A DNA stretch of 64,000 nucleotides, from assembly GCA_016195085.1 (NCBI GenBank), contig JACQAG010000042.1:62001-126000 (forward strand). The letters run 5' to 3'. Made by a program: the position numbers and the translations under genes. The number at the start of each line of letters is the position of its first letter. Position 1 is the stretch's first letter. The notes beneath the pieces were generated by a model that did not search any database, had not been told where the DNA came from, and saw only the letters and a list, made by a program, of their open reading frames with translations. This DNA is from Pseudomonadota bacterium (GTDB lineage Bacteria; Pseudomonadota; Alphaproteobacteria; SHVZ01). This document shows, piece by piece, positions 5,788 to 23,203 of this stretch.

Positions 5788-6511
5788 CGATCACTTCAGC
5801 GTTGCTGCGGATGTCCCGGGGCGTGCCCTCGGCGATGATCCGGCCCTCCGCCAAGACGAGGATGCGGCTGCAGAGGGCCATGACGAAGTCCATGTTGTGC
5901 TCGATCACGATGAAGGTGGCTTTCTGGCTCTCGTTGATCGCCTGCAGCCGGTCGCGGAGATTGCCCAGCATGGTCGGATTGACGCCGCCCGCCGGCTCGT
6001 CGAGCAGTACCAGCCGCGGACCCGCCATGAACGCCATGGCGACATCGAGCAGCTTCTGCTGGCCATAGCTGAGGCGGCCCGCCCGCTCGGCGGCCACGGG
6101 CGTGAGGCGGAAGAACTCGATCATGGTCTCGGCCTCGGGCCTCAAGCCCGCATCGGCGCGTCCCAACAGGCGGGAGAGCATCGAGCCCCGATGCTCCTGG
6201 CCGGCAAGGATCAGATTGTCGCGGACCGAGAGCTCAGGGAAGACCTGCAGGAGCTGGAAGGTGCGGCCGACGCCGAGCCTATTCAGATCGCAGGGTCGCA
6301 TGCCGGTGATCGGCCTGCCGTTGACATGGACCGCCCCCGAGCTCGGCCTCAATTGGCCCAGCACGCAGTTGAACAAGGTCGACTTGCCCGACCCGTTGGG
6401 GCCGATGATGCCGAGGATCTCGCCTTCGCCGAGAGCAAAGGAGACGTCGTCGACGGCGCGAATGCCGCCGAAGGACTTGCAGAGATGGGAGACCTCGAGC
6501 ACCGGGCTCAT
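5768..6511 (-). CDS. livG: ABC transporter ATP-binding protein, LivG type
   Basis: Second ATPase of the HAAT importer, 247 residues. Walker A is GPNGSGKST, the signature region LSYGQQKLLDVAMAFM and Walker B LVLLDEPAGGVNP, followed by the switch His in IVIEHNMDFVM. SYGQQ in place of SGGQQ is common in LivG. The start ATG overlaps the livM stop by four bases, which fixes the start; the frame stays open much further upstream but only over livM in another frame. Confidence 0.92.
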   Translation of the reverse strand: MSPVLEVSHLCKSFGGIRAVDDVSFALGEGEILGIIGPNGSGKSTLFNCVLGQLRPSSGAVHVNGRPITGMRPCDLNRLGVGRTFQLLQVFPELSVRDNLILAGQEHRGSMLSRLLGRADAGLRPEAETMIEFFRLTPVAAERAGRLSYGQQKLLDVAMAFMAGPRLVLLDEPAGGVNPTMLGNLRDRLQAINESQKATFIVIEHNMDFVMALCSRILVLAEGRIIAEGTPRDIRSNAEVIDAYLGH

Positions 6512-7494: not shown

Positions 7495-8369
7495 ACGGTG
7501 CGTTCCTCGACCACGCCCAGAATGCCCTGGGGCCGAAACAGGATGACGGCGATCAGGATCAAGAGCGGAAAGGCGCCGCGGTATTGCGCGGAGATGTAGG
7601 CCGCCGACAGATTGTCGAGCACGCCCAGGATGACGCCGCCCAGGATGGCGCCCCTGACCTGATTGAAGCCGCCGATGATGGCGGCGATGAAGGCGGCAAG
7701 CCCCAAGGTCTCGCCATTGGTGAACTTGGCGAGATAGATCGGGCTAATGAGGATCGAGGCCAGCGCCACCAGGCCGGCATTGATGAGGAAGGTGTAGAGG
7801 ATCATCCGCTCGACCGGCACGCCGAGGATGCGGGCCACGGTCGGGTTCTGCGCGGTCGCCTGCATGGAGCGGCCGAGGCGCGTATGGTGCAAGAGGAGAT
7901 GCAAGCCCCCGACCGCGAGGATGGCGACGGCCACGATCATCACGCTTTGGCTGGAGATGACCGCATCCAGGATCAGGATGTCCTTGGTCTCGATCAGCGC
8001 CGGAAAGGGCTGCGCCTGGGAGCTGTAGAAGTCCTTGGCGAACTCCTTGAGAAACAGCGAGAGCGCGATGGTGGAGATGACCAGCGGCAACACCCCATGG
8101 CTCACCATCGGATCGACGATGATGCGCTTGAACAGGAATCCGAGAACGGCCACGGAAACGACGAGGCCGACCAGAGAAGCCGCCCAGAACGGCAGGCCGA
8201 TGAACTTGATCGCCGCCAGCGCGAAGAAGGCCGGGATCATCACGAACTCGCCCTGGGCGAAGTTGATGGTCTGCGAGGTCTGCCAGAGCAAGGTGAAGCC
8301 GACAGCGACCAAGGCATAGATCGCCCCGGTCGCCAGACCCGACACGAAAAGCTGGATAAAGGCGGCCAT
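7491..8369 (-). CDS. livH: ABC transporter permease, LivH type
   Basis: The partner permease, 292 residues. The N-terminus LATGAIYALVAVGFTLLWQT and the NFAQGEFVM stretch are diagnostic of LivH. The coupling-loop area reads MQATAQNPTVARILGV. It is the first of the overlapping livH-livM-livG-livF group and is separated from the binding-protein gene upstream by about 160 bases holding a cloverleaf repeat. Confidence 0.93.
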   Translation of the reverse strand: MAAFIQLFVSGLATGAIYALVAVGFTLLWQTSQTINFAQGEFVMIPAFFALAAIKFIGLPFWAASLVGLVVSVAVLGFLFKRIIVDPMVSHGVLPLVISTIALSLFLKEFAKDFYSSQAQPFPALIETKDILILDAVISSQSVMIVAVAILAVGGLHLLLHHTRLGRSMQATAQNPTVARILGVPVERMILYTFLINAGLVALASILISPIYLAKFTNGETLGLAAFIAAIIGGFNQVRGAILGGVILGVLDNLSAAYISAQYRGAFPLLILIAVILFRPQGILGVVEERTV

Positions 8370-8407
8370 GGCCCGCGGCCCGGAGTTACAAGCTCACAGC
8401 ACGCAGA

Positions 8408-8493
8408 CCCTCACCCACCCGCGCTATCGCGCGGGTCCCCCCTCTCCCGCATTGCGGGAGAGGGTGCCGAGCGCTGGCGAGGCGGGTGAGGGT
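8408..8493. repeat. Cloverleaf palindromic repeat, copy 2
   Basis: Same element as at 4149-4232: paired ends CCCTCACC/GGTGAGGG around hairpins CCCGCGC-TATC-GCGCGGG and CTCTCCCGCA-T-TGCGGGAGAG. Apart from a few bases in the first loop and the tail it matches copy 1. It separates the binding-protein gene from livH, where such a structure could stabilise the upstream mRNA (inference). Confidence 0.85.
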
Positions 8494-8530
8494 CAGTGCT
8501 ATTGGGCCTGTGCCTTGAATCCCATCCCCA

Positions 8531-9670
8531 CTACTTCCCGAGCTTCGGCAGGACCTCGACGATCTTCTGCTTGCCGTCGACGACCTCGGCCAGGAAGCTG
8601 GCGCGGTCGATGTCGCCGTTCTTGTCCCAAGTGGCCTCCATCAAGATGCCCGGCTCCTGCTCGGGCTTGATGGTGAGGCCGTGCAGGGTCTCGACGAACA
8701 GCTTCTTATCGAACTTGCCCATTTTCTCGGTCACATGCTTGATCGTGTAGATGGCGATGTAGCCCTTGATGCCGTTGTGGTCGTTGGCATAGCCGAACTT
8801 CTTCTTGAACTTGGCGGCGAATTCCTGCACGGCGGGCACCGGCGCGTCCGCGCTCAGACCGACATGGCCCTTGACGCCATTGGCGGCATCGCCGGCGAGC
8901 TCGATCACCTTCTGGCTCAGAAGCGTGGTCTCGCCGATGAGCGGCGCCTTGATGCCCTGCTTCTTCGCCTCCTTCAGAAACCGGGCGCTCTCCTCCTCGT
9001 TGGTATAGACGAAGATCACCTCGGCATTCGCCGCCTTGATCTTCACCACATCGGCGGAGAAGTCGGCCTGGCCCTGCTCGGTCGAAATGTCGGCGACCAC
9101 CTGGATGTTGCGGGTCTTCATCTCGGAGAGGAAGGTGTCGCGCCCGCCCTTGCCGAAGTCGTTGTTGACCCAGAGGATCGCCACCGACTTGGCCTTCAGC
9201 CCATCGCGGAGATAATTGGCGATCTTCGGCATGCTGAATTGCTGGCCGAAGGAGGTGCGAAACACATAAGGATCGCCCTTCTGGGTGATGGCCGCCGCCT
9301 CGCCGCCGACGATCTCGGGAACCTCCGCCGCCTGGGTCAGCGCCATGTCCACCAGGACCGAGCCGGAGAACACCGGACCCAGCACCACATAGGGATTGTT
9401 GTCGAGCACCTTCTGCATCTGGGCGCGGCTGATGCCGGCATCGCTCTGGGTGTCGAGATGCGGGGTGTCTATCCGGCGCCCGAGAATGCCGCCCTTGGCG
9501 TTGATCTCCTCGATGGCAAGGATGATGCCGTCGCGCCAATTGGTGCCCGAGACGGCACCCGGCCCGGAAAGCTCCACGATGTTGGGGATGTAGACGGTCG
9601 TCTGCGCGTTCGCGGTGGCGGGCGCCAGGATGATCCCGGCCGCGAGGATCCCCTTCAGCAATGTCTTCAC
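8531..9670 (-). CDS. Periplasmic substrate-binding protein of the HAAT importer
   Basis: A type I periplasmic binding protein (Peripla_BP_6 family) of 379 residues. A cleavable signal peptide, VKTLLKGILAAGIILAP ending at ATANAQ, precedes the mature start TTVYIPNIVELSGPG. I take the GTG at 9670 as start because GGGAGG lies six bases ahead; the 30-codon upstream extension has no signal character. It lies directly downstream of quiC1 and upstream of livHMGF, so its ligand is likely a quinate- or shikimate-like acid (inference). Confidence 0.9.
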   Translation of the reverse strand: MKTLLKGILAAGIILAPATANAQTTVYIPNIVELSGPGAVSGTNWRDGIILAIEEINAKGGILGRRIDTPHLDTQSDAGISRAQMQKVLDNNPYVVLGPVFSGSVLVDMALTQAAEVPEIVGGEAAAITQKGDPYVFRTSFGQQFSMPKIANYLRDGLKAKSVAILWVNNDFGKGGRDTFLSEMKTRNIQVVADISTEQGQADFSADVVKIKAANAEVIFVYTNEEESARFLKEAKKQGIKAPLIGETTLLSQKVIELAGDAANGVKGHVGLSADAPVPAVQEFAAKFKKKFGYANDHNGIKGYIAIYTIKHVTEKMGKFDKKLFVETLHGLTIKPEQEPGILMEATWDKNGDIDRASFLAEVVDGKQKIVEVLPKLGK

Positions 9671-9756
9671 CCGTTTCCTCCCTTGATGCGTTTGCCTTGG
9701 TTCTACGGAGCAGGATAGCGCCGAAGGAGCCGGCTCCGCATCGGCTTTTGTCAGCC

Positions 9757-11643
9757 TCAAAGGCCCGGAATCGTCGATTGCTGAAAAAGCCGCGTTTGGG
9801 CCGCCAGCCGGATCGGAGCATTGACCGCCCCGAAGCCTCTGTAGCCGCGGCGCTCGACGATCTCGAAGAAGAATCCCCCCTCCAGGGTTCTGGTGTAGGC
9901 GTGGAAGAATTCGGCGCTGCCCTCGCGGTCGTAGAGGATCTGCTCGGCGTGCAGCCGCGCGATCTCAGGGGCGGCGAGATCGGTGCGGGCGGCGAGGTCG
10001 TCATAGTAGTTGTCGGGTATCGGCAGGAGCTGGATGCCGCCCCTGCGCAGCGCCTGGACGGTGGCGAAGATGTCGGATGTCGCAAGCGCGATCTGCTGCA
10101 CGCCTGAGCCGAAGAAGTCGTGGATAAAGCGTGCCGCCAGGGTCTGCCGGCTCTGCGAGGCGTTGAGAACCAGGCGCAACGACCCGTCCGCGGCCTCGAC
10201 CGCCTGGCTCTGCACCACCCCGCCTGGATCGATGACGTCCTGGACGGCGGTCTTTCTCAGATCGAGGAGCGAGGTATAGAACAGGAGCCAGGTCAGCATT
10301 TCCTCATATTGCATCGTCTGCGAAAGGTGATCGAACCGGATGAGACCCGCATCCTTGCCGGCGGACGGTGCGAGGCCTTCAAAGTCGATGTCCCAAAGCC
10401 GGCCGAGATCGGTCTTGTGGTCGACGAAATAGACGACGCTGCCGCCGACGCCGCGGACGGCCGGGATGTCCAACTCTCCGGGGCCCGAGCGCTGCCGGAA
10501 CGGCTGGTCCAGGAGCTTTGCTGCCCGCTCCACCGTCGCCGCCGCATCGTCGACCCTGAGGGCCATCGCGCAGACCGAGACCCCGTGGGTGATGGAGAAG
10601 GAATGGGCAAAGCCCTCCTTGTCGCAATTGACCACGATGTTGATGTCGCCCTGGCGCCAGCGGGTGACCGCCTTCGAGCGATGGATGCCCACCTTGGCGA
10701 AGCCGAGCCCGTTCAAGACCTGCTCGAATTCCGGTGCCTGCGCCTCGTCCATCGCAAACTCGAGGAACTCGATACCCTCTGGGCGGGAGCGCGGCGGCAG
10801 CCGAGGCGCGCCGGGCACGGGAATGCCGGTCTTGCAGGCGAGCGCGTCCAGCATGACGAGGAGAGAGCGCTGGCCGTCGACGGCGACATGCCGGGCCGAG
10901 CCCGAGCGAAACCGATCGCTGAAGATTTCCAGCGACAACAGCCCGTCGAAGCCGGTCGCCTGGAGGGCTTCCATGAACTCCGCCAAGGGCAGGTCGCCCT
11001 GGCCGGGAAAGCAGCGGTAGTGCCGGCTCCAGGATAGATAGTCCATCTGCAGAAGCGGCGCGTCGGCGACCTGGACCAGAAAGATCCGGTCCTTCGGGAT
11101 CGAGCGGATGGGCATGAGGTCGGTCTGGCGCACCAGGATATGGAAGGTGTCGAGGACCAGGCCGATGGCGGGGTGATCGGCGCGCCGAACCACCTCCCAG
11201 GAATCCCGGTAGTCGTTGATATGCCGGCCCCAGGCCAGCGCCTCGAAGGCGACCCGGAGTCCGCGCTTGGCCGCACGCTCGCCGAGCTCGTGGAAGTCGG
11301 CGGCGGCCCGGTCGATGCCGCCCTGCGCGTCGGGGGAGACATTGCTGCAGATCAACAGGAGATCGCAGCCGAGATCCTGCATGAGGTCGAACTTCCGCTC
11401 GGCTCGGGAGAAGGCCTTTTGCCGGTGCGGTTCCGGCATGCCCTCGAAATCGCGGAAGGGCTGGAAGGTAATGGTCTTGAGACCGAGATCCTCGACGATC
11501 CGGCGGACGTCCCCGGGCGTGCCGTTGAACGACAGGAGATCGTTCTCGAAGATCTCCACGCCCTTGAACTGGGCGGCCGCGATGGCATCCAGCTTTTCGG
11601 CGAGCGTCCCGCTCAGCGATACGGTGGCGATTGCGGTCTGCAC
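9757..11643 (-). CDS. quiC1: 3-dehydroshikimate dehydratase, QuiC1 type (isomerase-like plus HPPD-like domains)
   Basis: Converts 3-dehydroshikimate to protocatechuate, the committing step of quinate/shikimate catabolism. The 628 residues hold an N-terminal TIM barrel of the sugar phosphate isomerase family (about 1-275) and a C-terminal VOC region resembling 4-hydroxyphenylpyruvate dioxygenase (about 290-615). Counting from the start, E134, D165, Q191 and E239 fall at the numbers I know for the metal ligands of Pseudomonas QuiC1. In the C-terminal domain the HPPD iron-ligand positions appear as His in RFDHLSQ, Gln in GVQQIAL (normally His) and Glu in FEIVERRGY, so true HPPD activity is unlikely. 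It lies between a shikimate dehydrogenase and an importer, as expected for catabolism. Confidence 0.93.
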   Translation of the reverse strand: MQTAIATVSLSGTLAEKLDAIAAAQFKGVEIFENDLLSFNGTPGDVRRIVEDLGLKTITFQPFRDFEGMPEPHRQKAFSRAERKFDLMQDLGCDLLLICSNVSPDAQGGIDRAAADFHELGERAAKRGLRVAFEALAWGRHINDYRDSWEVVRRADHPAIGLVLDTFHILVRQTDLMPIRSIPKDRIFLVQVADAPLLQMDYLSWSRHYRCFPGQGDLPLAEFMEALQATGFDGLLSLEIFSDRFRSGSARHVAVDGQRSLLVMLDALACKTGIPVPGAPRLPPRSRPEGIEFLEFAMDEAQAPEFEQVLNGLGFAKVGIHRSKAVTRWRQGDINIVVNCDKEGFAHSFSITHGVSVCAMALRVDDAAATVERAAKLLDQPFRQRSGPGELDIPAVRGVGGSVVYFVDHKTDLGRLWDIDFEGLAPSAGKDAGLIRFDHLSQTMQYEEMLTWLLFYTSLLDLRKTAVQDVIDPGGVVQSQAVEAADGSLRLVLNASQSRQTLAARFIHDFFGSGVQQIALATSDIFATVQALRRGGIQLLPIPDNYYDDLAARTDLAAPEIARLHAEQILYDREGSAEFFHAYTRTLEGGFFFEIVERRGYRGFGAVNAPIRLAAQTRLFQQSTIPGL

Positions 11644-11724: not shown

Positions 11725-12660
11725 TCACAACCTCGCGAAGTGACGGAGCATGCGCTCGGTGTCGGGTGCTAGCCCGGTGAAGAGCTCGAATGCCGCAGCA
11801 GCCTGGAAGACGGCCATGCCGCCGCCGGCGAGCGTGCGGCAGCCAAGGCGGCGTGCCGATCGGAGAAGCTCGGTCTCCAGCGGCACGTAGACGATGTCGG
11901 CCACCCAGTGGCTTGGGCGAAGCAGACGCTCGGGCACCGGCGATCCCGGATGACTCGGCATGCCGATCGGCGTCGTATTGATGATGCCGTCGGCCAGGGT
12001 CAGTACCCGTTCGAGATCGTCGCTGGCCATGGCCCGACCCGGTCCGAACCGCCGGTTCAGCGTCTCGGCCAGAGCGGCGCTCCGCGCTCCGTCGGTGTCG
12101 ACGATCATCAGCGCGCCGGCGCCGAGCGAAAGTGCTGCCACCGCCACCGCCGCACCTGCCCCGCCGGCACCGAGCTGAGCCACCATGCGCCGGGGCGCAT
12201 CTCCCATGCCGCGGCGGAAGTTCTCCGCGAAGCCATGACAATCGGTGTTGTGGCCGATTCTGCGGCCATCCCCGAAGACGACGGTGTTGACGGCGCCGAT
12301 CGCGTCCGCCTCCGGCGAGAGCCGGTCCAGCTTCGAGAGCACGGCCTGCTTGCAGGGATAGGTGATGTTCAGGCCGGCGAAACCCAGACGTTCCGCCGCC
12401 AGCAGCAGCTCGTCCAAGTCATCGGCGGTCAGGTGGAGCGCGGCGAGATCGATGAGCTTGTAGATGCAGCGAAGGCCCTGCTCGGCGGCTTCCGCCTCGT
12501 GCAGCGCCGGCGAGCGCGATGCCTGAATGCCGGCGCCGATGAGTCCGAGCAGGAGCGACCGGCCTCCACGCGTCGACGCAGGCGTCCTATCGACCCCGGT
12601 AGCGCCAGCATCGGGGCCTAAGGGCAGAACCAGGCTCGAATCGGCAGCGTTGACGGCCAT
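11725..12660 (-). CDS. Quinate/shikimate dehydrogenase, catabolic type (second AroE paralogue)
   Basis: An AroE-superfamily enzyme of 311 residues. The start of the fold reads GLIGAGIQASRSPALHE, the catalytic Lys is in LNITYPCKQAVL, the Asp in GHNTDCHGF, and the cofactor loop is GAGGAGAAV. NITYPCKQ instead of NLTIPHK and the GLIGxGIxAS opening resemble QsuD-like quinate/shikimate dehydrogenases. The frame is open to a TTG at 12777, but that lies upstream of the expected transcription start of the operator-controlled promoter, so I use the ATG at 12660; the exact start remains uncertain. It is the first gene of the quiC1-importer operon. Confidence 0.85.
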   Translation of the reverse strand: MAVNAADSSLVLPLGPDAGATGVDRTPASTRGGRSLLLGLIGAGIQASRSPALHEAEAAEQGLRCIYKLIDLAALHLTADDLDELLLAAERLGFAGLNITYPCKQAVLSKLDRLSPEADAIGAVNTVVFGDGRRIGHNTDCHGFAENFRRGMGDAPRRMVAQLGAGGAGAAVAVAALSLGAGALMIVDTDGARSAALAETLNRRFGPGRAMASDDLERVLTLADGIINTTPIGMPSHPGSPVPERLLRPSHWVADIVYVPLETELLRSARRLGCRTLAGGGMAVFQAAAAFELFTGLAPDTERMLRHFARL

Positions 12661-12777: not shown

Positions 12778-12806
12778 ACCATGTACGAACTAGTTCGTTC
12801 AGTCAA
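12778..12806 (-). promoter_or_regulatory. Promoter with TetR operator for the dehydrogenase-quiC1-importer operon (operator copy 1)
   Basis: Reading leftward, TTGACT (12806-12801) is a -35 box and CATGGT (12783-12778) a -10 box, 17 bases apart. Between them lies the palindrome ATGTACGAA-CTAG-TTCGTTCAG (12781-12802), whose core ACGAACTAGTTCGT is perfect. The same palindrome occupies the same place in two other promoters (13597-13618 and 18016-18037). A repressor bound here would block RNA polymerase. Confidence 0.82.
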
Positions 12807-12830
12807 GGCTGTCGTCGCCCGCAACTCGGA

Positions 12831-12836
12831 TATACT
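12831..12836 (+). promoter_or_regulatory. Probable -10 box of the tetR gene
   Basis: TATACT lies 36 bases before the tetR start. No good -35 box is seen 16-18 bases upstream. The nearest operator ends 28 bases upstream, so autoregulation is plausible. Confidence 0.45.
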
Positions 12837-12872
12837 GCCGCGCAATTCGACGTCGCAACGAAGACGGGAACC

Positions 12873-13541
12873 ATGATGGCTCGCAACGGCAATTTGAGAA
12901 AGCTCGACGAGCGCGCCGACGGCGTTCGCGCTCCCGACGCCGAGGGCAGCCGGCGCAACATCCTCGACATCGCCACCGAGGAGTTCGCTGAGAAGGGCTT
13001 CAGCGGCGCTCGCATCGACGAGATCGCGGCGCGCACCAACACCAGCAAGCGGATGATCTACTACTACTTCACCGACAAGGACGGGCTGTTCGTCGCCGTT
13101 CTCGAGGAAGCCTATCGGCGCATCCGCACGATCGAGAATTCCCTCGACCTGGATCATCTGTCTCCGGAAGACGCGCTCAAGAAGCTGGTGGGATTCACCT
13201 TCGACTACCAGAACGCCAATCCGGATTTCATCCGGCTGGTGATGGTTGAAAACATCCACAACGGCGTTCACCTGCAGAAATCCCGAGGCATTCGCAATCT
13301 GAACGTGACCGTGATCGATGCGATCGAGCGGCTCTATGAGCGCGGTGTCGCCGACGGCGTCTTCCGCAAGGGTCTCGACCCGATCCACATCCACATGTCG
13401 ATCAGCGCACTCTCCTTCTTCAACGTCTCGAATCGCGCCACCTTCTCCTTGATCTTCGACCACGACATGACCTCCCGCCAGGCCCTGGCCAAGCGCCGGG
13501 CCCAGGTGGTGGAGACGATTCTCCGCTACATGGCGAAGTAG
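12873..13541 (+). CDS. TetR/AcrR-family transcriptional regulator of the hydroaromatic island
   Basis: A one-component regulator of 222 residues. The DNA-binding domain covers about residues 28-75, with the helix-turn-helix IDEIAARTNTSKRMIYYYF. The C-terminal ligand domain contains FDYQNANPDFIRLVMVEN and resembles the TetR_C group seen in RutR-like proteins. It sits between the divergent quiC1-importer operon and the TRAP/aroQ genes, each preceded by the same palindrome, so it is the natural candidate for the repressor. The inducer may be quinate, shikimate or protocatechuate (inference). Two consecutive ATG codons occur at the start; the upstream ribosome site is weak. Confidence 0.9.
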   Translation: MMARNGNLRKLDERADGVRAPDAEGSRRNILDIATEEFAEKGFSGARIDEIAARTNTSKRMIYYYFTDKDGLFVAVLEEAYRRIRTIENSLDLDHLSPEDALKKLVGFTFDYQNANPDFIRLVMVENIHNGVHLQKSRGIRNLNVTVIDAIERLYERGVADGVFRKGLDPIHIHMSISALSFFNVSNRATFSLIFDHDMTSRQALAKRRAQVVETILRYMAK

Positions 13542-13591
13542 GCCACCGCGCCCTCGCCCCGGCGGGCGGGGCGGATCAGCCTCGCCTTGAG

Positions 13592-13621
13592 TTGACATGT
13601 ACGAACTGTTTCGTACATCAT
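13592..13621 (+). promoter_or_regulatory. TRAP operon promoter with operator copy 2
   Basis: TTGACA at 13592-13597 and CATCAT at 13616-13621, 18 bases apart, form a sigma70-like promoter. The spacer is filled by the perfect palindrome ATGTACGAA-CTGT-TTCGTACAT at 13597-13618. A nearly identical promoter and leader precede the second TRAP binding protein at 18 kb. Confidence 0.88.
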
Positions 13622-13676
13622 TCGCGACAACGAAGCATGGCCGCCTTGCGGACCGGCAAAAGGGGAGGAAACGGAC

Positions 13677-14663
13677 ATGAACGGGATCGATCGCCGTACG
13701 GTTGTGGCTGGTGGCGCCGCGATGATCGCGTTGGGCGCGACCCGAACTGCGCGGGCGCAAGCCAAGCCGAAAGTGCGATTCTCCGCCGCCTTCACCGAAC
13801 AGGATCTGCGCGCCGAAGCCTACAAGGCATTTGCCGCGGACATGAAGGACGACATCGACTTCGAGCCGTACTGGAACAACACGCTGTTCAAGCAGGGCGC
13901 CGAGCTGGTGGCCATGCAGCGCGACAATCTGGAAATGTGCAACCTGGCGCCGGCCGACATTTCAAAGCAGATCCCGGCCTGGTCGCTGATGACGTCGGCC
14001 TATCTGTTCCGCGACGCCGAGCACATGACGAAGACCTTCCGCAGCGACGTCGGCAAGGAATTCGTCAAAATGGCCAAGGACCAGCTCGGCATCCAGATCA
14101 TCACGCCGGTGTTCTTCGGAACCCGCAACGTCAATCTGAAACCGGACAAGCTGATCAGGACGCCGGCGGACTTGGCCGGCATCAAGCTGCGCATGCCGCC
14201 CGGCGAGTTCTGGCAGTTTCTCGGCGAATCGATCGGTGCCAATCCGACGCCGGTCGCCTTCGCCGAACTGTACACGGCGCTGCAAACCGGAACCGTCGAC
14301 GGTCAGGACAACCCGCTGGTGCTGAGCAAGCTGATGAAATTCGACGAGGTGACCACGCAATTCGTGCTCACCGGCCACGTCATCGGCTACGACGTGATGG
14401 CGATCACCTCGAAGCTTTGGGATGCGATGCCGCCCGCGCGGCAGGCAAAGCTTCAGGCGGCTGCCGAAAAGGCGATCGACGCCTCCACCGCTAAATACGT
14501 GGCGCAGGAGACGGAAGTCGCAGCGGCGTTCAAGGCGGCAGGCAAGAAGGTCTATGCGCCGGACCAGGACGCGTTTCGCGCCTTCGCACAGAAGAAGTAT
14601 TTGGACAAATACGGCCCCGATTGGCCCAAGGGCGCGCTGGAGCGCATCAACGCAGTGAAGTAA
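13677..14663 (+). CDS. dctP: TRAP transporter substrate-binding protein, DctP family (copy 1)
   Basis: Periplasmic binding protein of 328 residues. The N-terminus MNGIDRRTVVAGGAAMIALG with TARAQ at the cleavage site is a Tat-type signal. The family core reads LAGIKLRMPPGEFWQFLGE...ANPTPVAF, then YTALQTGTVDGQDNP; the Arg of KLRMP usually binds the ligand carboxylate. GGGAGG precedes the ATG. It is closely related to the protein at 18101-19093. The operator upstream and aroQ downstream suggest a hydroaromatic acid ligand. Confidence 0.92.
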   Translation: MNGIDRRTVVAGGAAMIALGATRTARAQAKPKVRFSAAFTEQDLRAEAYKAFAADMKDDIDFEPYWNNTLFKQGAELVAMQRDNLEMCNLAPADISKQIPAWSLMTSAYLFRDAEHMTKTFRSDVGKEFVKMAKDQLGIQIITPVFFGTRNVNLKPDKLIRTPADLAGIKLRMPPGEFWQFLGESIGANPTPVAFAELYTALQTGTVDGQDNPLVLSKLMKFDEVTTQFVLTGHVIGYDVMAITSKLWDAMPPARQAKLQAAAEKAIDASTAKYVAQETEVAAAFKAAGKKVYAPDQDAFRAFAQKKYLDKYGPDWPKGALERINAVK

Positions 14664-14769
14664 GCGCCCGGCGATCGACGATCATCGACCGCGTCGCGGG
14701 GGCGGCCGATGATGCGCGAAAGGGACTGCGCGAGACTCGCCGGGCGGACGATCGACGGGGTGGCGATCC

Positions 14770-15291
14770 ATGCGATTCGGGCTCTCTGATCTGGCTGCGG
14801 CCGGCCGATGGCTGCGCCGAAGAGCGGAGAACGTCGCGGTTGTCCTCCTTGCGACGATGTTCGTCTGCTTCATCATCCAGATCTTCGCCCGCTATGTGCT
14901 GAACAATCCGGCGGGGTGGACCGAGGAGGTCGAGATCGCGACGTGGCTGTGGGTGGTGCTCTGGGGCGCCGCTTTCGTGGTCTCGGAAAAGGAGGAAGTC
15001 CGCTTCGACATCATCTACAGCAACATCTCCGAGGGCAAACGGCGGGCATTCACGGTGATCACCGGCATGTCGCTCATCGGCCTCTACGGGGCATCGCTGC
15101 CCGCGGCGTACAGCTAAGTCGCCTTCATGAAGGTGGAGCGATCGGCCTATCTGCGGGTGCCGATGAACTACCTCTATTCGATCTACGTCATCTTCGCCGT
15201 CGCCTGCATCTGCCGCTATAGCTGGCTGGTGTGGCGCGCGATCCGCGGCGAGGTCTCGCCGGTCACCGATCCCGCGCAGCTTCCCGACTGA
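14770..15291 (+). pseudogene. dctQ: TRAP transporter small permease dctQ with an internal TAA stop
   Basis: The first 115 codons encode a normal DctQ start: a first helix VAVVLLATMFVCFIIQIFARYVL, then the typical GWTEEVEIATWLWVVLWGAAFVV. A TAA at 15115-15117 interrupts the frame, yet the same frame continues at once as VAFMKVERSAYLRVPMNYLY and a last helix SIYVIFAVACICRYSWLVW, ending at TGA 15289-15291, four bases before dctM. The full length, 173 codons, is normal for DctQ. A single base change from a Tyr codon (TAC/TAT) to TAA explains it. Either the transporter is broken or the base is a sequencing error. Confidence 0.88.
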
Positions 15292-15294
15292 GCC

Positions 15295-16593
15295 ATGATC
15301 CTCTCCCCATTTGCCATCTGCATCATTTCGATAACGGCGCTGGCAGGGCTCGGCTTGCCGATCGGGCACGCGATGATCGTCTCATCGATCTTCTATTTGC
15401 TGCTGGCGGGCCTCGACCCCGCGACGGCCGCCGAGCAGATGCTCAACGGCCTGTTCAACGGCTACGTGCTGCTCGCGGTGCCGCTCTTCATTCTGGCCGC
15501 CGACCTCATGAACATCGGCAGCCTCACCGACCGGCTGCTGCAATTCTGCCTCGTCCTGGTCGGGCGCTTCCGCGGCGGGCTCGGACACGTCAATGTCGTA
15601 GCGAACATGATTTTCGCCGGGATGTCGGGATCGGCGATCGCCGATGCGGTCGGCATCGGCCGCATCATCATCGGCATGATGACCAAGGGCGGGAAATATC
15701 CCATCGCCTACGCGGGAGCGATCACCGCGTCGGCCGCGATCATCGGGCCGATCATTCCGCCGTCGATTCCGATGGTGCTCTACGCGCTGATTTCCGACGC
15801 ATCGATCGGCTATCTGTTTCTTGGCGGCTTCGTGCCGGGCGTGCTGCTCGGCATCGCCTTCATGGTGATCAATTCCCTGATCGCGCGCCGCCGCCTCTAC
15901 CCGGTCGAGCCGTCGATCCCGATCCGCGAGATTCCCCGCATCACCATCCGGGCGTTCCCCGCCTTGATGCTGCCGGTCATTCTGCTGTTCGGAATCTACG
16001 GCGGCGTCACGACGCCGACGGAAGGTGCCGCCGCCGCGGCCGCCTACGCGCTGTTCGCCTCCACCGTGCTCTATCGCGCCGTGACGTGGAGGCAGCTCTA
16101 CGAGGCGATCCTGGCCAGCGGCAAGGCGGCGACCTCGGTCGGCATCCTGATCGCCGGCGCGCTGGTGTTCAACTACGTGGTGACGATCGAGAACATTCCA
16201 CGGTCCCTGCAGCACTTCATGAGCGGGTATGACCTGTCGGCGGGCGGGTTCTTGCTGCTCGTCAACGTCATTCTGTTCATTCTCGGGTGCCTGCTGGAAG
16301 GCAGCACGATCCTTTTGGTCGTGGTCCCGATCTTCATTCCGACCGCGAAGGCGCTTGGCATAGACCTGGTCTATTTCGGCGTCGTCGTCGTCGTCAACAT
16401 CATGATCGGGCTTCTCACGCCGCCCTATGGACTGCTGCTCTTCATCCTTGCCAACATGACGAAGCAGCCGCTGGCGGCGATCGTGCGCGAGGCGACTCCT
16501 TTTATCGTTGCCGCGATCGTCGTTCTCGTTCTCATAACGGCGATACCCGACGCCGTGCTTTGGCTGCCGAGGGTGATGGGCTACAAGGGCTGA
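15295..16593 (+). CDS. dctM: TRAP transporter large permease, DctM family
   Basis: A 432-residue membrane protein with about twelve hydrophobic segments. Typical stretches are IFAGMSGSAIADAVGIG, AIIGPIIPPSIPMVLYA and GGVTTPTEGAAAAAAYA. It is the ion-coupled transport subunit and needs DctQ and a binding protein. It follows the interrupted dctQ by three bases. The sequence itself looks intact, which suggests that the dctQ defect is recent or an error. Confidence 0.93.
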   Translation: MILSPFAICIISITALAGLGLPIGHAMIVSSIFYLLLAGLDPATAAEQMLNGLFNGYVLLAVPLFILAADLMNIGSLTDRLLQFCLVLVGRFRGGLGHVNVVANMIFAGMSGSAIADAVGIGRIIIGMMTKGGKYPIAYAGAITASAAIIGPIIPPSIPMVLYALISDASIGYLFLGGFVPGVLLGIAFMVINSLIARRRLYPVEPSIPIREIPRITIRAFPALMLPVILLFGIYGGVTTPTEGAAAAAAYALFASTVLYRAVTWRQLYEAILASGKAATSVGILIAGALVFNYVVTIENIPRSLQHFMSGYDLSAGGFLLLVNVILFILGCLLEGSTILLVVVPIFIPTAKALGIDLVYFGVVVVVNIMIGLLTPPYGLLLFILANMTKQPLAAIVREATPFIVAAIVVLVLITAIPDAVLWLPRVMGYKG

Positions 16594-16628
16594 GCGGGCG
16601 GCCTTCCCTGGCGTGAAAGCGGAACCGG

Positions 16629-17060
16629 ATGACCAAACCGATCTACATTCTCAACGGGCCGAACCTCAACCGGCTCGGCACGCGCGAGCCGCATATCTAC
16701 GGTACCGCCACGCTCGCGGACATCGAAAGGATGTGCCGTGCGGAAGCCGGCGATCGGGCGATCGTATTTCGCCAAACCAACAGCGAGACGCAGCTGATCG
16801 AGTGGGTGCATGAGGCGATCGACGAGGGTGCGGGAATCATCATCAACCCGGCCGCCTATACCTTCACCTCGCTGGCGCTGCTCGACGCGCTGAAGATGGT
16901 GGCCGGTCCGATCATCGAGCTGCACATCTCGAACATTCACAAGCGTGAAGCCCATTATCACAATTCCTATGTGTCGAAGGTCGCGACCGCGATCATCGCC
17001 GGGCTCGGCGCCAAGGGTTATTCGATCGCCGTGCGGGCCATGCTCGGTCTGCTTCAATGA
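16629..17060 (+). CDS. aroQ: 3-dehydroquinate dehydratase, type II
   Basis: Interconverts 3-dehydroquinate and 3-dehydroshikimate. The 143-residue protein shows ILNGPNLNRLGTREPHIYG with R19 and the catalytic Y24, Asn at N73 and the catalytic His H99 in ELHISNIHKRE. The stretch NPAAYTFTSLAL has Phe79 where most type II enzymes have a substrate-binding His (THTS). Position in the operator-controlled TRAP operon, 35 bases after dctM, indicates a catabolic role linking quinate to QuiC1. Confidence 0.93.
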   Translation: MTKPIYILNGPNLNRLGTREPHIYGTATLADIERMCRAEAGDRAIVFRQTNSETQLIEWVHEAIDEGAGIIINPAAYTFTSLALLDALKMVAGPIIELHISNIHKREAHYHNSYVSKVATAIIAGLGAKGYSIAVRAMLGLLQ

Positions 17061-17164
17061 TCACAGGCTCGTCGCGGCGGTGAGGCTCGCTCCGAGCAAA
17101 GGCGGTCGAGCCGCACCAAGCCTGAAAGCTTGTCCGAGATCGGACGATCACGGAGCTGAGCGGC

Positions 17165-17958
17165 GTGGAAGGCGCGTTGTCGGACAAGTATGACGTCGTG
17201 GTGCTGGGCTCCGGCGCCGCCGGGCTGACCGCGGCCTTGATTGCGGCGATCGACGGGCTTCGTCCGATCGTCATCGAGAAGTCGCCCTGGATCGGAGGGA
17301 CGACGGCGATCTCGGCGGGTTCTGTTTGGGTGCCGGGGACGCATCTGGCACCAGGGGCGGAGGCCAGCCCCGAAGACGCAAGTCGCTACCTCGACGCAAT
17401 CGTCGGGAATCATTCTCCGGACGCGCTGAGGCGGGCATTCCTCTCGCAGGGTCCCAGGGCAATCCGGCTGCTCGAGGACGTGACGCACGTCACGTTCCGA
17501 CCTTACGCGTACCATCCCGACTACTATCCGGACGCCCCAGGGGCGACGCTGCGCGGGCGGGTGCTGGAGCCGGTCCCATTCGACGGACGCGTGCTCGGTC
17601 GGGATTTCGCGCGCCTGCGGCCGCCGCTTCGCGAGTTCATGCTCTTCGGAGGCATGATGGTCGATGCCTGGGGCCGATCGGAGCGCCGCCTTATTGCGCG
17701 ATCCGCGTCTATCCCGGAGACATCGGCGCCAGTCTCGGCCTCATCACCGACGCGAACGCGCGCGTCCTCAATGAATCGGGCGCCCCGATCGAGGGCCTCT
17801 ATGCGTGCGGAAACGACATGAGCTCGGTGATGGGGGGCACCTATCCGGCGCCTGGCGTGACGCTCGGTCCGGCGATCACGTTTGGCTTCATCGCGGCGCG
17901 CGAGGCAACGCGGCTGATCCGGTCGACTGCGTCCGACGAGTGCACCGGGCTGGGCTGA
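17165..17958 (+). pseudogene. FAD-dependent dehydrogenase remnant (fumarate reductase/ketosteroid dehydrogenase family) with a central deletion
   Basis: The N-terminal part (from GTG 17165) is a clear flavoprotein start: VVVLGSGAAGLTAAL, IVIEKSPWIGGTTAISAG and LREFMLFGGMMVDAWG. At about 17660-17690 the reading shifts into another frame, where the C-terminal end of the same family follows: CAIRVYPGDIGASLGLITD, EGLYACGNDMSSVMGGTYP and GVTLGPAITFGFIAAREA, to TGA 17956-17958. Family members are usually above 500 residues, so roughly half of the gene has been lost and the ends joined out of frame. It cannot make a working enzyme. Confidence 0.85.
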
Positions 17959-18010
17959 CTCGATATCCCCCGGGCCGGATCGCCGGCGGGGCAAAGGATT
18001 CCCCCTCGGA

Positions 18011-18040
18011 TTGACATGTACGAACTGTTTCGTACATCAT
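18011..18040 (+). promoter_or_regulatory. Promoter with operator copy 3, before the second TRAP binding protein
   Basis: TTGACA at 18011-18016 and CATCAT at 18035-18040 flank the perfect palindrome ATGTACGAA-CTGT-TTCGTACAT (18016-18037). Bases 18011-18041 are the same as in copy 2, and parts of the leader (CAACGAAG, TTGCGGACCGGCA) are also shared. Confidence 0.88.
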
Positions 18041-18100: not shown

Positions 18101-19093
18101 ATGGGATCTCTGCTGAATCGTCGCGCCGTGCTCATGGGCGCTACCGGCCTACTGGCCGCGGCGGCAGCGCCGAGGGCCGGGGCCGCCGACAAGATCGTGC
18201 TCAAGCATGCCGATACCATCTCCGAGCAGGACCTTCGGGCACGGTCCCTGAACGAGATCTTCGCCAAAGAAATCGGCCCTGAATTCGAGTTCCAGGGCTA
18301 CTTCAACGCGAGCCTGTTCAAGCAGGGCACCGAGCTGGTCGCCATGCAGCGCGGCAATCTCGAGCTGGCCAATCTGGCGCCCCAGGATATGGCCAATCAG
18401 GTACCGGCGTGGAGCCTTATGACCGCGGCCTATCTGTTTCGCGATCCCGAGCACCTGAAGCGGGTGTTCAAGAGCGATGTCGGCAAGGAGTTCCTCGACA
18501 TCGCCGACAAGCAGCTCGGCGTCCGCGTTCTGGCGGCACCCTATAACGGCACCCGCCACATCAACTTGAAGCCGAAAAAGCGCATCAGCACGCCTGATGA
18601 TCTGGCGGGGATCAAATTGCGCATGCCCGGCGGCGAGACTTGGCAGTTCATGGGCAAAGCGCTCGGCGCCAATCCGACCCCGATGGCCTTCACCGAGGTC
18701 TATACCGCCCTCCAGACCGGCGCCATCGACGCCCAGGACAATCCGTTGCCGGCCGACAAGCTGATGAAGTTCTACGAGGTCACCTCGCAGATCGTGCTCA
18801 CCAGCCACCAGGTCGGCTACAACCTGTTTTCGATCTCGAACAAGATGTGGACGACCTTGTCGGCCGAACAGAAGGCCCGCATTCAAGCCGCCGCCGACAA
18901 GGCCACCGACTGGAGCACCGAGCAGATCAAGAAGGAAGAGGGCGAGCTGGCCGCCTTCTTCAAGAGCCAAGGCCTCGAGGTCTATACCCCCGACGTCGCC
19001 GCGTTCCGCGCCCGCGCGCAAAAGATGTATCTCGAATCCGATCTGTCCAAAGACTGGCCCAAGGGCGCGCTCGATCGCATCAACGCCCTGTAG
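18101..19093 (+). CDS. TRAP transporter substrate-binding protein, DctP family (copy 2)
   Basis: A 330-residue paralogue of the protein at 13.7 kb; for instance FKQGTELVAMQRGNLELANL matches FKQGAELVAMQRDNLEMCNL. The signal has twin Arg (LNRRAVLMGATG) and ends at AGAA. Core motifs are AGIKLRMPGGETWQFMGKAL and YTALQTGAIDAQDNP. GGAGG lies ahead of the ATG. No membrane subunits follow, so it may use the DctQM at 14.8-16.6 kb or be an orphan. It carries its own copy of the TetR operator. Confidence 0.92.
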   Translation: MGSLLNRRAVLMGATGLLAAAAAPRAGAADKIVLKHADTISEQDLRARSLNEIFAKEIGPEFEFQGYFNASLFKQGTELVAMQRGNLELANLAPQDMANQVPAWSLMTAAYLFRDPEHLKRVFKSDVGKEFLDIADKQLGVRVLAAPYNGTRHINLKPKKRISTPDDLAGIKLRMPGGETWQFMGKALGANPTPMAFTEVYTALQTGAIDAQDNPLPADKLMKFYEVTSQIVLTSHQVGYNLFSISNKMWTTLSAEQKARIQAAADKATDWSTEQIKKEEGELAAFFKSQGLEVYTPDVAAFRARAQKMYLESDLSKDWPKGALDRINAL

Positions 19094-19185
19094 CTGCTCG
19101 AGCGTGCGAAGGGCGGTCGCATTCTGCTAAAGGTGTCGGGGGACTGCACTCCGCTACGTCGAAGCCTGAACGAGGACGCCGCACC

Positions 19186-19450
19186 ATGGCCGGACCCGCA
19201 CGCATCGCCGTCGTCGGCACCGGCCTGATCGGCCGCGAGCATGTGGCGCGGATTCAAGCCGAGCCGAATGCGGCGCTCGTCGCCATCGTCGATCCCGCGC
19301 CGGGCGCCAAGGAGCTGGCCGCCGCTGAGGGCGTTCCGTGGCTCGACCATCTCGATTCCATGCTGACCGAGGTCAAGCCCGACGGCGTGGTGATCGCCAC
19401 ACCCAACCGGCTGCACGTGCCTTGTGCCATGGCCTGCATCCGGGCGGCGG
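19186..19450 (+). pseudogene. Gfo/Idh/MocA oxidoreductase, 5' fragment only
   Basis: An ATG at 19186 opens a typical Rossmann start: IAVVGTGLIGREHVARI, then VVIATPNRLHVPCAMACI. The homology stops at about 19450, exactly where the convergent aldo/keto reductase ends. Intact members have about 330-400 residues and continue with a GKHVLxEKP-type motif, which is absent. Only about 88 codons remain, so this is a truncated relic. Confidence 0.8.
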
Positions 19451-20317
19451 TCAGATCCCGAAGATGGAGGCGAGCCCGGTGCGCTGGCTCAAGGCCGCCA
19501 TGGTCTCGTTGGACGGCTTCACCACCGGTTCCGCCGCCGCCTTCAGGATCGACGGCAAGAGGGCCACGTCGCCCGCCGACAACAGGAACACGCCGGGACG
19601 GCTCAACACCCAATGGACGGCGGGGCGGATGTCGTCCATCGCCTCCAAGGGTTGATACCAGGTGTTGCGGTCGCGTTTGATTCCCGCCGCCCAGGGACCC
19701 CTGGCGACACCCTTGATCGTCTGCACCGCCAGATTGCGCTCACCGGCGAGCTGGACCGTCCGCTCGAAATCCGGCGCATAGGTCTGGTGCTGGGCGGCGA
19801 ACCAGTTCCAGGGCAGCAGGATCGAGTCGAAGTCGAAGCGCTCCAGGCTGCGGCGATGCATGGCCGCCACCGTCCAGCCATGGCCGGTGACGCCGATATG
19901 CTTGACCAATCCCTGATCGCGCGCCTCGATGCAGGCCTCCAAGGCACCCTTCGGCCCTAGCGCCCGCTCCCATTCGTCGGGGTGGAAGAGCGCATGCAGC
20001 TGGATGAGATCGATGCGGTCGGTCCTCAGCCGCTCGAGCGAACGGCGGATACTGTCCCGCGCGCCTTGGTAGTCCCGCTCCCCGGTCTTGGTGGCGAGGA
20101 AGAAGCGATCCCGGTGCCGGCCCATCCAGGGCCCGATGCGGAGCTCGGAATCGCCGTAGCTGGCCGCGGTATCGATGTGATTGACGTCATGCTCGATCAG
20201 GAGATCGAGCACCCGGTCGGCCACATCCTGGTCCACCTTTCCCAGCGCCGCGGCGCCGAAGATGACCGCCGAGCTGCTATGGCCGGTGCGGCCGAAAACC
20301 CGCTTTTCGATCGCCAT
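19451..20317 (-). CDS. Aldo/keto reductase
   Basis: An NADPH-dependent oxidoreductase of 288 residues with a TIM barrel. Motifs are [16 protein letters not shown] (catalytic Asp and Tyr), ATKTGERD with the Lys, and [11 protein letters not shown] with the His position. The start [12 protein letters not shown] is preceded by GGAGG six bases ahead; another ATG lies one codon upstream and a further 28 codons are open. The substrate is unknown. It ends on the Gfo/Idh/MocA fragment and is divergent from larC. Confidence 0.9.
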
Positions 20318-20444: not shown

Positions 20445-21692
20445 ATGGGCCTGCATATCCACCTCGATCCCGTGGGCGGCATCGCCGGCGACATGTTCGC
20501 GGCCGCGATGCTGAATGCCCTGCCGGAGCATCGCCAGACGCTGATGGAGGCGCTGGCCGGCCTGGCGCTGCCCCAGGGTGTGGCGGCAAGGCTGGTCACC
20601 TTCGACGACGGCACGCTCTCAGGCGCCCGCTTCGAGGTGACGCTGCCGGATTCCGCCGCCGCGCACGCTCATGACCACGGCCCCAATCATGACCACGCAC
20701 ACACGCATCGTCCCTTCCGCGACATTCGCCGTTTCCTCGAGAGCTCAACGCTTCCCGCCGCAATCCGCCAGCGCGCGCTCCTGATCTTCCAAGTCCTGGC
20801 GGAAGCCGAGGCAAAAGTGCATGGGCTTGCCGTCGACGACGTCGCCTTCCACGAGATCGGCGCCTGGGACTCGATTGTGGACATCGCCGCCGCCGCCTTC
20901 CTCATCGAGCGGGCCGGCGCCGGCACTTGGTCGCTCGCACCCCTGCCGATCGGCTCCGGCCGGGTGCAGACCCGGCATGGCGAGCTGCCGGTGCCGCCGC
21001 CGGCCGTGGCCTTGCTGCTCCAGGGCTTCGCCGTGTTCGATGACGGCCGCCCGGGCGAGCGGGTGACGCCGACGGGCGCCGCCATCCTTCGGCATCTGGC
21101 GCCGGCGCCCCGGTTGCCGCACGGCATCTTCCGCCATGAGCGCGTCGGCTACGGCTTCGGCACCAAGCGGTTCCAGGGGATCAGCAACGTGCTTCGCGTG
21201 CTGGTGCTGGACGAGACGGCCGGCCACGCGCCCGATCAGGAGATCGGCGTTCTCAGCTTCGAGGTGGACGACCAGACGCCGGAAGATCTCGCGATCGGCC
21301 TCGATCGCCTGCGCGGCTTTCCGGGCGTGCTCGACGTGCTGCAGGCGCCCGCCTTCGGCAAGAAGGGGCGGCTGGTCGCCTCTATCCGGGTGCTGGCCGA
21401 GGCCGCTTCGCTCGATGCGGTCGCCGAGCGCTGCTTCGCCGAGACGACGACAATCGGGGTCAGGCTGGAGCGGGTCAGGCGACGGGCGCTCGAACGCGAG
21501 ACTGCGTCGGTCGGCGACGGGGAGGGCAGATCGATCCGGGTCAAGCGCGCCAAGCGCCCAGGCGGAGGGGTCACCGCCAAGGCGGAGATGGATGACATCG
21601 CCGCCACCTCCGGCGACCATAGCGACCGCGTGGGGCGACGCCGGCGCATCGAGCGGGTGGCGCTGGCCCGGGAGGAGGACCGGGATGCCTGA
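20445..21692 (+). CDS. larC: Nickel insertion protein LarC (nickel-pincer cofactor synthesis)
   Basis: LarC inserts nickel into the pincer nucleotide cofactor of lactate racemase, using CTP. The protein of 415 residues begins with the family signature HLDPVGGIAGDMFAAAML and has a His-rich loop, HAHDHGPNHDHAHTH, likely for nickel. Further marks are AFHEIGAWDSIVDIAAAAF and RVTPTGAAILRHL. It is read as one frame, without the frameshift that splits larC in Lactobacillus. It heads the larC-larE-larB-larA operon and overlaps larE by eight bases. Confidence 0.93.
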   Translation: MGLHIHLDPVGGIAGDMFAAAMLNALPEHRQTLMEALAGLALPQGVAARLVTFDDGTLSGARFEVTLPDSAAAHAHDHGPNHDHAHTHRPFRDIRRFLESSTLPAAIRQRALLIFQVLAEAEAKVHGLAVDDVAFHEIGAWDSIVDIAAAAFLIERAGAGTWSLAPLPIGSGRVQTRHGELPVPPPAVALLLQGFAVFDDGRPGERVTPTGAAILRHLAPAPRLPHGIFRHERVGYGFGTKRFQGISNVLRVLVLDETAGHAPDQEIGVLSFEVDDQTPEDLAIGLDRLRGFPGVLDVLQAPAFGKKGRLVASIRVLAEAASLDAVAERCFAETTTIGVRLERVRRRALERETASVGDGEGRSIRVKRAKRPGGGVTAKAEMDDIAATSGDHSDRVGRRRRIERVALAREEDRDA

Positions 21693-22512
21693 GGCGGCTC
21701 GACGGACAGCGGCGTTAGAGACGCTGTTGGAGCACCTCGCTCCGGTCGCGGTCGCCGTCAGCGGCGGCGTCGACAGCACGACCTTGGCCGCCCTTGCCCA
21801 TCGCCGGCTCGGCCGGCGCGCCACGATGATGCATGCGGTCTCGCCGGCGGTGCCCCCGGAAGCGACCGAACGCGTGCGGGCGCTGGCTCTGAGCGAGGGC
21901 TGGCACCTGGAGGTCCTCGATGCCGGCGAATTCGCCGATCCGCGCTACCGCGCCAATCCCGCCGACCGCTGCTTCTATTGCAAGACCAATCTCTATGGCG
22001 GCATTGCGGCGGCGACCGACGCCGTCATTCTCTCCGGCACCAATCAGGACGATCTCGCCGATTGGCGCCCCGGCCTCAAGGCGGCCGTCGAGCATGGCGT
22101 GCGCCATCCCTATGTCGAGATCGGTATCGACAAGGCGGGCGTGCGCGCCATCGCCCGGCATCTTGAGCTCGGCCCGATCGCCGAGCTGCCGGCCTCGCCC
22201 TGTCTTTCCAGCCGGATCGAGACCGGAATCGCCATCGACCCGGAGGAGCTGGCGCTGGTGCACGCGGTGGAGAGGTTCGTTGCCGCACGGCTCGGCGCCG
22301 CGACCGTGCGCTGCCGTCTGCGCCGCTCCGGTCTGGTGATCGAGCTCGACCAAACGAGCCTCGAGAGCTTGCCGACGGCCGAGCGCGAGACCCTCGCAGC
22401 CGCGGTCGGCGCGATCGCCCGCGCCCGCGGCGGCGACCGCCCCGTGGGCTTCAAGGCCTATCGCATGGGCAGCGCCTTCTTGCGGCCGTCTCCCGCCCCG
22501 ATCGGCCGATGA
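21685..22512 (+). CDS. larE: Pyridinium dinucleotide sulfurtransferase LarE
   Basis: LarE adds sulfur to the carboxylated pyridinium intermediate of the nickel-pincer cofactor. The 275-residue protein has the ATP-binding PP-loop AVSGGVDSTTL at about 24-34. Three Cys sit at positions of interest: C96 and C99 in DRCFYCK and C173 in ASPCLSSR. In known LarE proteins the Cys near PCLSSR either donates its sulfur or, with two more Cys, holds an Fe-S cluster; the visible trio would allow the second type (inference). The ATG lies within the end of larC, with GGAGG ahead. Confidence 0.9.
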   Translation: MPEAARRTAALETLLEHLAPVAVAVSGGVDSTTLAALAHRRLGRRATMMHAVSPAVPPEATERVRALALSEGWHLEVLDAGEFADPRYRANPADRCFYCKTNLYGGIAAATDAVILSGTNQDDLADWRPGLKAAVEHGVRHPYVEIGIDKAGVRAIARHLELGPIAELPASPCLSSRIETGIAIDPEELALVHAVERFVAARLGAATVRCRLRRSGLVIELDQTSLESLPTAERETLAAAVGAIARARGGDRPVGFKAYRMGSAFLRPSPAPIGR

Positions 22513-22525
22513 CCGAACCCAACTC

Positions 22526-23203
22526 ATGACCGAGACCGGCATCAACCTCGATTTCGATCGCACCAGCCGCCTCGGCTTCGATGAGGCGATGTTCTGCTCG
22601 GGCAAGACTGTGGGCCAGATCGCTGCCATCCTCGAGCGCGTGGCCGAGCGTGGCGGCAGCATGCTCTTGACCCGGCTCGAGCCGGCGGTCTTCGCCCTGC
22701 TGCCGGAGGAGACGCGCCGGCACCTCGACTACGAGGCGCTGTCGGGCACGGCTTATTTCGGTCCGGTGGCGCCGCTCGGCAAGATCGGTCAGGTCGCCGT
22801 GGTCGGCGCCGGCACGTCGGACATGGCCGTCTGCCGCGAGGTGGTCCGCACCCTGTTCTATCACGGCGTCAAGGCGAGCGAGGTCTATGACGTCGGTGTC
22901 GCCGGGCTGTGGCGGCTCCTGGAGCGCGTGCCGGAGATCGTCCGTCACCCCGTGGTGATCGCGGTCGCCGGCATGGATGCGGCCTTGGTCAGCGTGCTGG
23001 GCGGGCTGGTGCCGGGCCTGGTCATCGCCGTTCCCACCTCATCGGGCTACGGCGTTGCCAATCGCGGCGAAACCGCGCTTCATGCCGCCTTGGCGAGCTG
23101 CGCGCCCGGCGTGCCGGTCGTTAATATCGACAATGGCTATGGTGCTGCCTGCGCGGCGCTTCGGGCACTTCGTGCCGCCGATTGGGCGAGGAGTGAGGGT
23201 TGA
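22526..23203 (+). CDS. larB: Pyridinium-3,5-biscarboxylic acid mononucleotide synthase LarB
   Basis: LarB carboxylates and hydrolyses nicotinic acid adenine dinucleotide, the first step of the cofactor route. The 225 residues include a PurE-like (AIR carboxylase) domain with VVGAGTSDMAVCREV, VIAVAGMDAALVSVLGG and VPTSSGYGVANRGETAL. It follows larE by 13 bases and its stop overlaps the larA start (TGATG). Confidence 0.93.
   Translation: MTETGINLDFDRTSRLGFDEAMFCSGKTVGQIAAILERVAERGGSMLLTRLEPAVFALLPEETRRHLDYEALSGTAYFGPVAPLGKIGQVAVVGAGTSDMAVCREVVRTLFYHGVKASEVYDVGVAGLWRLLERVPEIVRHPVVIAVAGMDAALVSVLGGLVPGLVIAVPTSSGYGVANRGETALHAALASCAPGVPVVNIDNGYGAACAALRALRAADWARSEG

Follow-up and report, generated by a model that had tools for sequence, protein, structure and literature searches.

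A TetR-family regulator with a recurrent palindromic operator at a quinate/shikimate island: a candidate repressor of hydroaromatic-acid catabolism

The window, that is, the whole 64-kb stretch of DNA that was analysed, carries genes for the degradation and putative uptake of quinate and shikimate on both sides of a gene for a TetR-family regulator (tetR). The features, in order of position, are the following:

3260–4102, minus strand: second shikimate dehydrogenase, AroE (NF001312, over the cut-off), at the end of the dehydrogenase-quiC1-ABC gene run
4284–5048, minus strand: SDR dehydrogenase, at the end of the same run
5029–9673, minus strand: ABC importer of the branched-chain-amino-acid type, five genes with open reading frames
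5029–5787, minus strand: LivF of the importer run
5768–6508, minus strand: LivG of the importer run
6508–7494, minus strand: LivM of the importer run
7491–8369, minus strand: LivH of the importer run
8531–9673, minus strand: LivK of the importer run
9757–11643, minus strand: quiC1, two-domain 3-dehydroshikimate dehydratase (NF042435, 694.9 bits, under the curated cut-off of 1200)
11725–12660, minus strand: NAD-type quinate/shikimate dehydrogenase (NF009201, 428 bits); the reading frame is open to 12777, with a likely ATG near 12660
12781–12802, minus strand: operator 1 (ATGTACGAACTAGTTCGTTCAG on the plus strand), separating tetR from the divergent dehydrogenase operon
12873–13541, plus strand: tetR, 222 amino acids, TetR_N and TetR_C_29 domains, recognition helix TSKRMIYYYF
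13592–13621, plus strand: predicted promoter with operator 2, before dctP1 (TTGACA-18-CATCAT, 10/12)
13597–13618, plus strand: operator 2, perfect palindrome ahead of dctP1
13677–14663, plus strand: dctP1, TRAP solute-binding protein (profile matches)
14770–15294, plus strand: dctQ, TRAP small permease, with an in-frame TAA at 15115–15117
15295–16593, plus strand: dctM, TRAP large permease (profile matches)
16629–17060, plus strand: aroQ, type II 3-dehydroquinate dehydratase (DHquinase_II and NF003806, both over the cut-off)
17165–17958, plus strand: remnant of a FAD-dependent dehydrogenase of the PRK12843 type, between aroQ and dctP2 (profile positions 14–178 of 578)
18011–18040, plus strand: predicted promoter with operator 3, before dctP2 (TTGACA-18-CATCAT, 10/12)
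18016–18037, plus strand: operator 3, perfect palindrome ahead of dctP2
18101–19093, plus strand: dctP2, second TRAP solute-binding protein

The gene identities proposed in the original prediction hold when they are compared with profiles and solved structures. The best solved relatives of the dehydrogenase are 2nlo and 3jyo, quinate/shikimate dehydrogenases of the C. glutamicum type (E ~1e-76), and the IVDTD stretch that follows its glycine-rich loop aligns to VADLD of 2nlo; an aspartate after this loop favours NAD+. The quiC1 product matches QuiC1 of P. putida (5hmq) over nearly its whole length (E 3.6e-186). The island had also been described as complete, which is correct for the dehydrogenase and for both dehydratases, and is too strong, as assembled, with regard to three other elements: dctQ has its in-frame stop, the FAD-dependent dehydrogenase is a remnant, and the genes for the next step, protocatechuate 3,4-dioxygenase (pcaGH), lie on another contig (C79). 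An operator before pcaGH was looked for and rejected, no site being found there at up to three mismatches. The dctQ stop codon corresponds to Tyr in relatives and to Phe in L020 (seven relatives compared), the frame is otherwise open to dctM, and the codon is either a nonsense mutation or a base-call error. In the FAD-dependent remnant, the N-terminal ~165 residues are followed by a change of frame, the middle is lost, and a C-terminal piece, recognised by eye, stands in another frame.

Some neighbouring features are recorded here in their own right. Only two shikimate-dehydrogenase genes were found in the genome, both of them in the quinate island, and four close relatives have one such gene at the tetR locus and another on a different contig; either the assembly lacks the housekeeping aroE or biosynthesis relies on the copy in the operon. 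Downstream of dctP2, at 19146–19460, lies the start of a gene similar by eye to Gfo/Idh/MocA oxidoreductases, soon broken off and possibly a second remnant. Just past the island, at 20445–24507, there are genes resembling larC, larE, larB and larA by eye, of the type associated with the nickel-pincer cofactor and lactate racemase.

The regulator itself is a member of the TetR family. Its N-terminus matches the helix-turn-helix profile PF00440 (TetR_N; E 1e-14, over the cut-off), its C-terminus matches PF17938 with 160 bits, and the structural model is all-helical, with a pLDDT of 90.9. The top fold matches of this model are TetR-family regulators, with 3npi first and chains of RutR among those after it; 3npi is also the closest solved structure by sequence (E 3.4e-27), being approximately 30% identical. 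It corresponds to DIP1788 of C. diphtheriae, an uncharacterised TetR protein whose entry title gives no function. RutR, which senses uracil, shares the TetR fold with the window regulator, but the score against the NCBIfam model for RutR (49.6 bits) is far below its cut-off of 368. Over 25 aligned sequences, residues R121, E126, N127, H174, S178, N187, T190 and F191 of the C-terminal half are invariant, and they are candidates for the residues that line the ligand pocket.

The palindrome ATGTACGAA-N4-TTCGTACAT occurs exactly three times in the window when up to three mismatches are allowed: the copies of operators 2 and 3 have none, and that of operator 1 has two, so that both the description and the positions originally given are borne out. 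The number of matches expected by chance is 0.01, and none of 100 shuffles contained three; a chance origin of the palindrome was rejected on this basis and on that of the shuffled loci described below. The same search over the whole genome (4,812,688 bases, up to three mismatches) returned the same three sites and no others (control 0/0), in an assembly of 4.81 Mb, 95 contigs and 95.9% completeness. A looser operator consensus, again with up to three mismatches, also found only the three places in the window (control 0/1). Scatter of the palindrome at unrelated genes, which the original prediction had named as one observation that would count against it, was thus looked for in its own genome, where all three sites lie at the island.

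Operators 2 and 3 face the two TRAP binding-protein genes, while operator 1 faces the dehydrogenase, QuiC1 and ABC genes, with tetR adjoining, and is kept upstream of the quinate dehydrogenase in relatives. The two perfect copies are not independent and count as less than two, because the promoter and leader around them are 84% identical over 76 bp; the promoter at operator 3 is probably a duplicate of that at operator 2, and the dctP1 and dctP2 proteins are 54% identical. A strictly perfect palindrome was rejected as the operator of the family: relatives mostly have GTTAGTTC or GTGAGTTA as the right arm, which makes the true consensus asymmetric around GTAC-GAAC.

Each site had been placed between −35 and −10 boxes 17–18 bases apart. 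This is solid for operators 2 and 3, whose promoters were found by an independent scan for sigma-70-like promoters; at operator 1 a TTGACT −35 box abuts the site on the minus strand and the second hexamer is weak (best 8/12). Immediately ahead of tetR the scan gave no sigma-70-like promoter. Of 35 selected sites in the window and in relatives, 20, including the three of the window, have a TTGAC box that adjoins the palindrome at an almost constant register, and the other 15 have no recognisable TTGAC box.

The connection between the regulator and the palindrome was evaluated at 42 loci, namely those encoding a TetR relative, using the palindrome of the window itself and no fitting. At 20 of them the palindrome, with up to five mismatches, is found in the 320 bp that precede the tetR relative; 200 shuffled half-sites gave a mean of 0.49 loci in the same test, with a maximum of 12. 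The positive loci comprise three close-family MAGs, two Hyphomicrobiales MAGs, two Halomonas, ten Rhodococcus/Rhodococcoides and three Nocardia; two phyla are represented among them, although the loci are far from independent of one another. Scores from a fitted matrix were excluded from the proof, since its training set shared some sites with the test. At the remaining 22 loci there is no site upstream of tetR at up to five mismatches. One of them (L016) has both of its sites in another part of the locus. In Agrobacterium and most Rhodobacteraceae the only candidates are weak and degenerate, and a convincing site is absent from L023, L029, L046, L047, L050 and L051.

When 385 genomes of the class were scanned with a consensus, 30 loci were returned, and the 3 kb examined at each contained a tetR relative in eight of the nine with 0–1 mismatch and in none of the 21 with 2-mismatch sites only; the latter are the 2-mismatch places whose flanks were checked, out of a larger number in the scan. 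Three further genomes have a 0–1-mismatch site, one with a tetR relative and two without. In all, a tetR relative adjoins the site in 9 of the 12 genomes outside the family that have such a site, and is absent in G283, G110 and G219. Among ten loci of the class whose TetR is 52–62% identical, a strong site is present in eight, a moderate one in L113 and none in L112 (at 58% identity), and among 15 loci at 42–51% identity a strong site is present in one. Across 14 genomes picked for having a site beside tetR, including Rhodococcus, Nocardia and Halomonas, all 15 whole-genome matches at up to one mismatch fall at the tetR/quinate locus (reversed-pattern control 0), which extends to other genera and phyla the check for scattered copies. 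Sites in the alphaproteobacteria, the gammaproteobacteria and the Nocardiaceae have no neighbouring gene in common other than the tetR relative.

In relatives, sites precede the dehydrogenase, dctP and quiC1 (the last in L097, L101, L102 and L103). Others stand before MFS transporters in Rhodococcus, identified as such by Pfam (L032 and L042), before an ABC permease (L096), before a TonB-dependent receptor (L098) and before a gene of the SMP-30 type that TRAP genes follow (L100). The arrangement varies: in L011 and L012 a single site accompanies one continuous run of dehydrogenase, TRAP, aroQ and quiC1 genes that points away from tetR, in L101–L103 quiC1 lies on the opposite side of tetR with a site of its own, and the window represents a third arrangement, with three operons and one site at the head of each. 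In relatives with a split operon, the portion with quiC1 can thus have an operator to itself. Of all the observations, this distribution speaks most strongly for a real regulon. At one locus, in a Rhodoferax MAG (L025), a good operator at 9743 stands beside a tetR relative and a gene for an S-layer-domain protein, with no quinate or other catabolic neighbours. In L097, a gene for an esterase similar to BD-FAE/LipQ (4528–5610) adjoins the tetR relative and bears an operator; this esterase could free quinate from plant esters such as chlorogenate.

The recognition helix points in the same direction. Nearly all regulators with the GTAC-GAAC operator have the helix SKRMIYYYF or TKRMIYYYF, a conservation that is biased in L010–L051, where one of the search peptides, MIYYYFTD, lies inside the helix. 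A group of paralogous TetR proteins (L119 and L122–L130) has NKRM(L/I)YHYF in its place; the NKRMLYHYF group forms one clade, and in L122, L124, L129 and L130 its members have GTAACCAAYTGGTTAC-like palindromes (GTAACC-NN-GGTTAC-like) upstream. The association of TetR and operator is shown by their co-occurrence across Alphaproteobacteria, Halomonas, Rhodococcus and Nocardia and on the joint change of palindrome and helix in the paralogous clade. The register of the operator, the conservation of the helix and the paired change of helix and palindrome together point to the TetR protein as the reader of the palindrome, and the comparative tests strongly support that assignment.

Taken together, these observations suggest that the protein encoded at 12873–13541 is a dedicated repressor of a hydroaromatic-acid (quinate/shikimate) regulon, a reading to which we give a probability of roughly 0.88. 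In the proposed mechanism, a TetR dimer would read the palindrome ATGTACGAAC-TR-GTTCGTACAT at the three operators, all of which overlap predicted core promoter elements, with a TTGAC −35 box abutting each. Because TTGAC abuts the palindrome in a nearly constant register, a dimer sitting there would mask the core promoter and repress by occlusion, keeping RNA polymerase off three transcription units, namely the dehydrogenase-quiC1-ABC operon, the operon of the TRAP and aroQ genes, and the gene for the second TRAP binding protein; the site beside tetR may also provide autoregulation. Quinate, shikimate, 3-dehydroshikimate or protocatechuate would then bind to the TetR_C_29 domain and cause the release of the DNA. 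The sites, their uniqueness, their overlap with promoters, the gene identities, the linkage of TetR and operator across phyla and the covariation of helix and operator are observed; that the protein physically binds, that it represses and does not activate, and which metabolite induces are the parts of this proposal that we infer.

Repression is not the only sense in which the protein could act on these sites. The position of the site varies in relatives, some of the listed sites have no recognisable TTGAC box, and quinate regulators of other families include activators such as QsuR, all of which would suit an activator or a dual regulator. The three sites of the window, on the other hand, either overlap the core promoter boxes or fill the space that separates them, and a protein attached there blocks the polymerase. 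The members of the TetR family are mostly repressors, and an activating or dual role is improbable.

A different objection concerns the reader of the palindrome, which could be another transcription factor, tetR being a mere neighbour with different targets. The three of 12 genomes that have a good site and no adjoining tetR relative speak for it; against it stand the sharing of tetR, and of no other gene, by sites in three distant groups, and the paralogous clade in which a different recognition helix goes with a different palindrome, and these make a foreign reader very improbable. Similarly, the likeness of the two perfect copies together with their leaders would fit an accident of promoter duplication devoid of regulatory meaning. 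The flanks of operator 1, however, are different, and its orthologous position in relatives is independent; the palindrome has remained identical while the dctP proteins diverged, and it is conserved across phyla, so we attach hardly any weight to such an accident.

On a broader scale, the same pair of TetR protein and palindrome recurs in distantly related bacteria. It is fairly probable, if less secure than the role proposed for the window regulator, that this clade of TetR proteins constitutes, with its operator, a widespread and previously undescribed type of hydroaromatic-acid sensor, present in Alphaproteobacteria, Halomonas and Nocardiaceae, in which the operator recruits local uptake genes (TRAP, ABC, MFS, TonB receptor), and which is split from its paralogues by paired changes in the helix (SKRMIYYYF versus NKRMLYHYF) and in the palindrome (GTACGAAC versus GTAACCAA). 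These paired changes make the DNA-reading code of the TetR proteins directly testable. Plants contain quinate and shikimate in abundance, and the quinate regulators in the cited papers are of the LysR or the IclR type. If the proposal is true, quinate genes would gain a third type of regulator, a TetR repressor whose operator is compact and portable, and its promoter-operator pair would be ready for use in a biosensor of hydroaromatic acids.

Among the known systems, QuiR of Listeria monocytogenes is a LysR-type regulator that exerts shikimate-responsive control over protocatechuate-forming genes; control of this kind would be shared with the window TetR, while the fold and the architecture of the site differ. 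PcaU responds to protocatechuate. It and other IclR-family regulators likewise have aromatic or hydroaromatic regulons with palindromic sites, with the IclR fold and not that of TetR. IclR-family regulators govern other quinate/shikimate gene sets through palindromic sites (PMC8222616), and two-domain QuiC1/QsuB enzymes have been characterised (PMC7442255). A parallel in what is controlled is QsuR of C. glutamicum, a LysR-type activator of the qsuABCD quinate/shikimate genes that responds to chorismate (PMC11258901): it too is a local regulator of a quinate/shikimate dehydrogenase, a two-domain dehydroshikimate dehydratase, a dehydroquinate dehydratase and uptake genes. The LysR fold of QsuR and QuiR was not found in the window regulator, which is a TetR protein whose compact palindrome overlies the core promoter. 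In the open PMC library, judged by titles and the openings of abstracts, no paper turned up on a TetR-type regulator for quinate genes. A TetR repressor acting on a palindrome is an ordinary mechanism; what is new with respect to these known systems is the operator and the assignment of its TetR clade to hydroaromatic catabolism.
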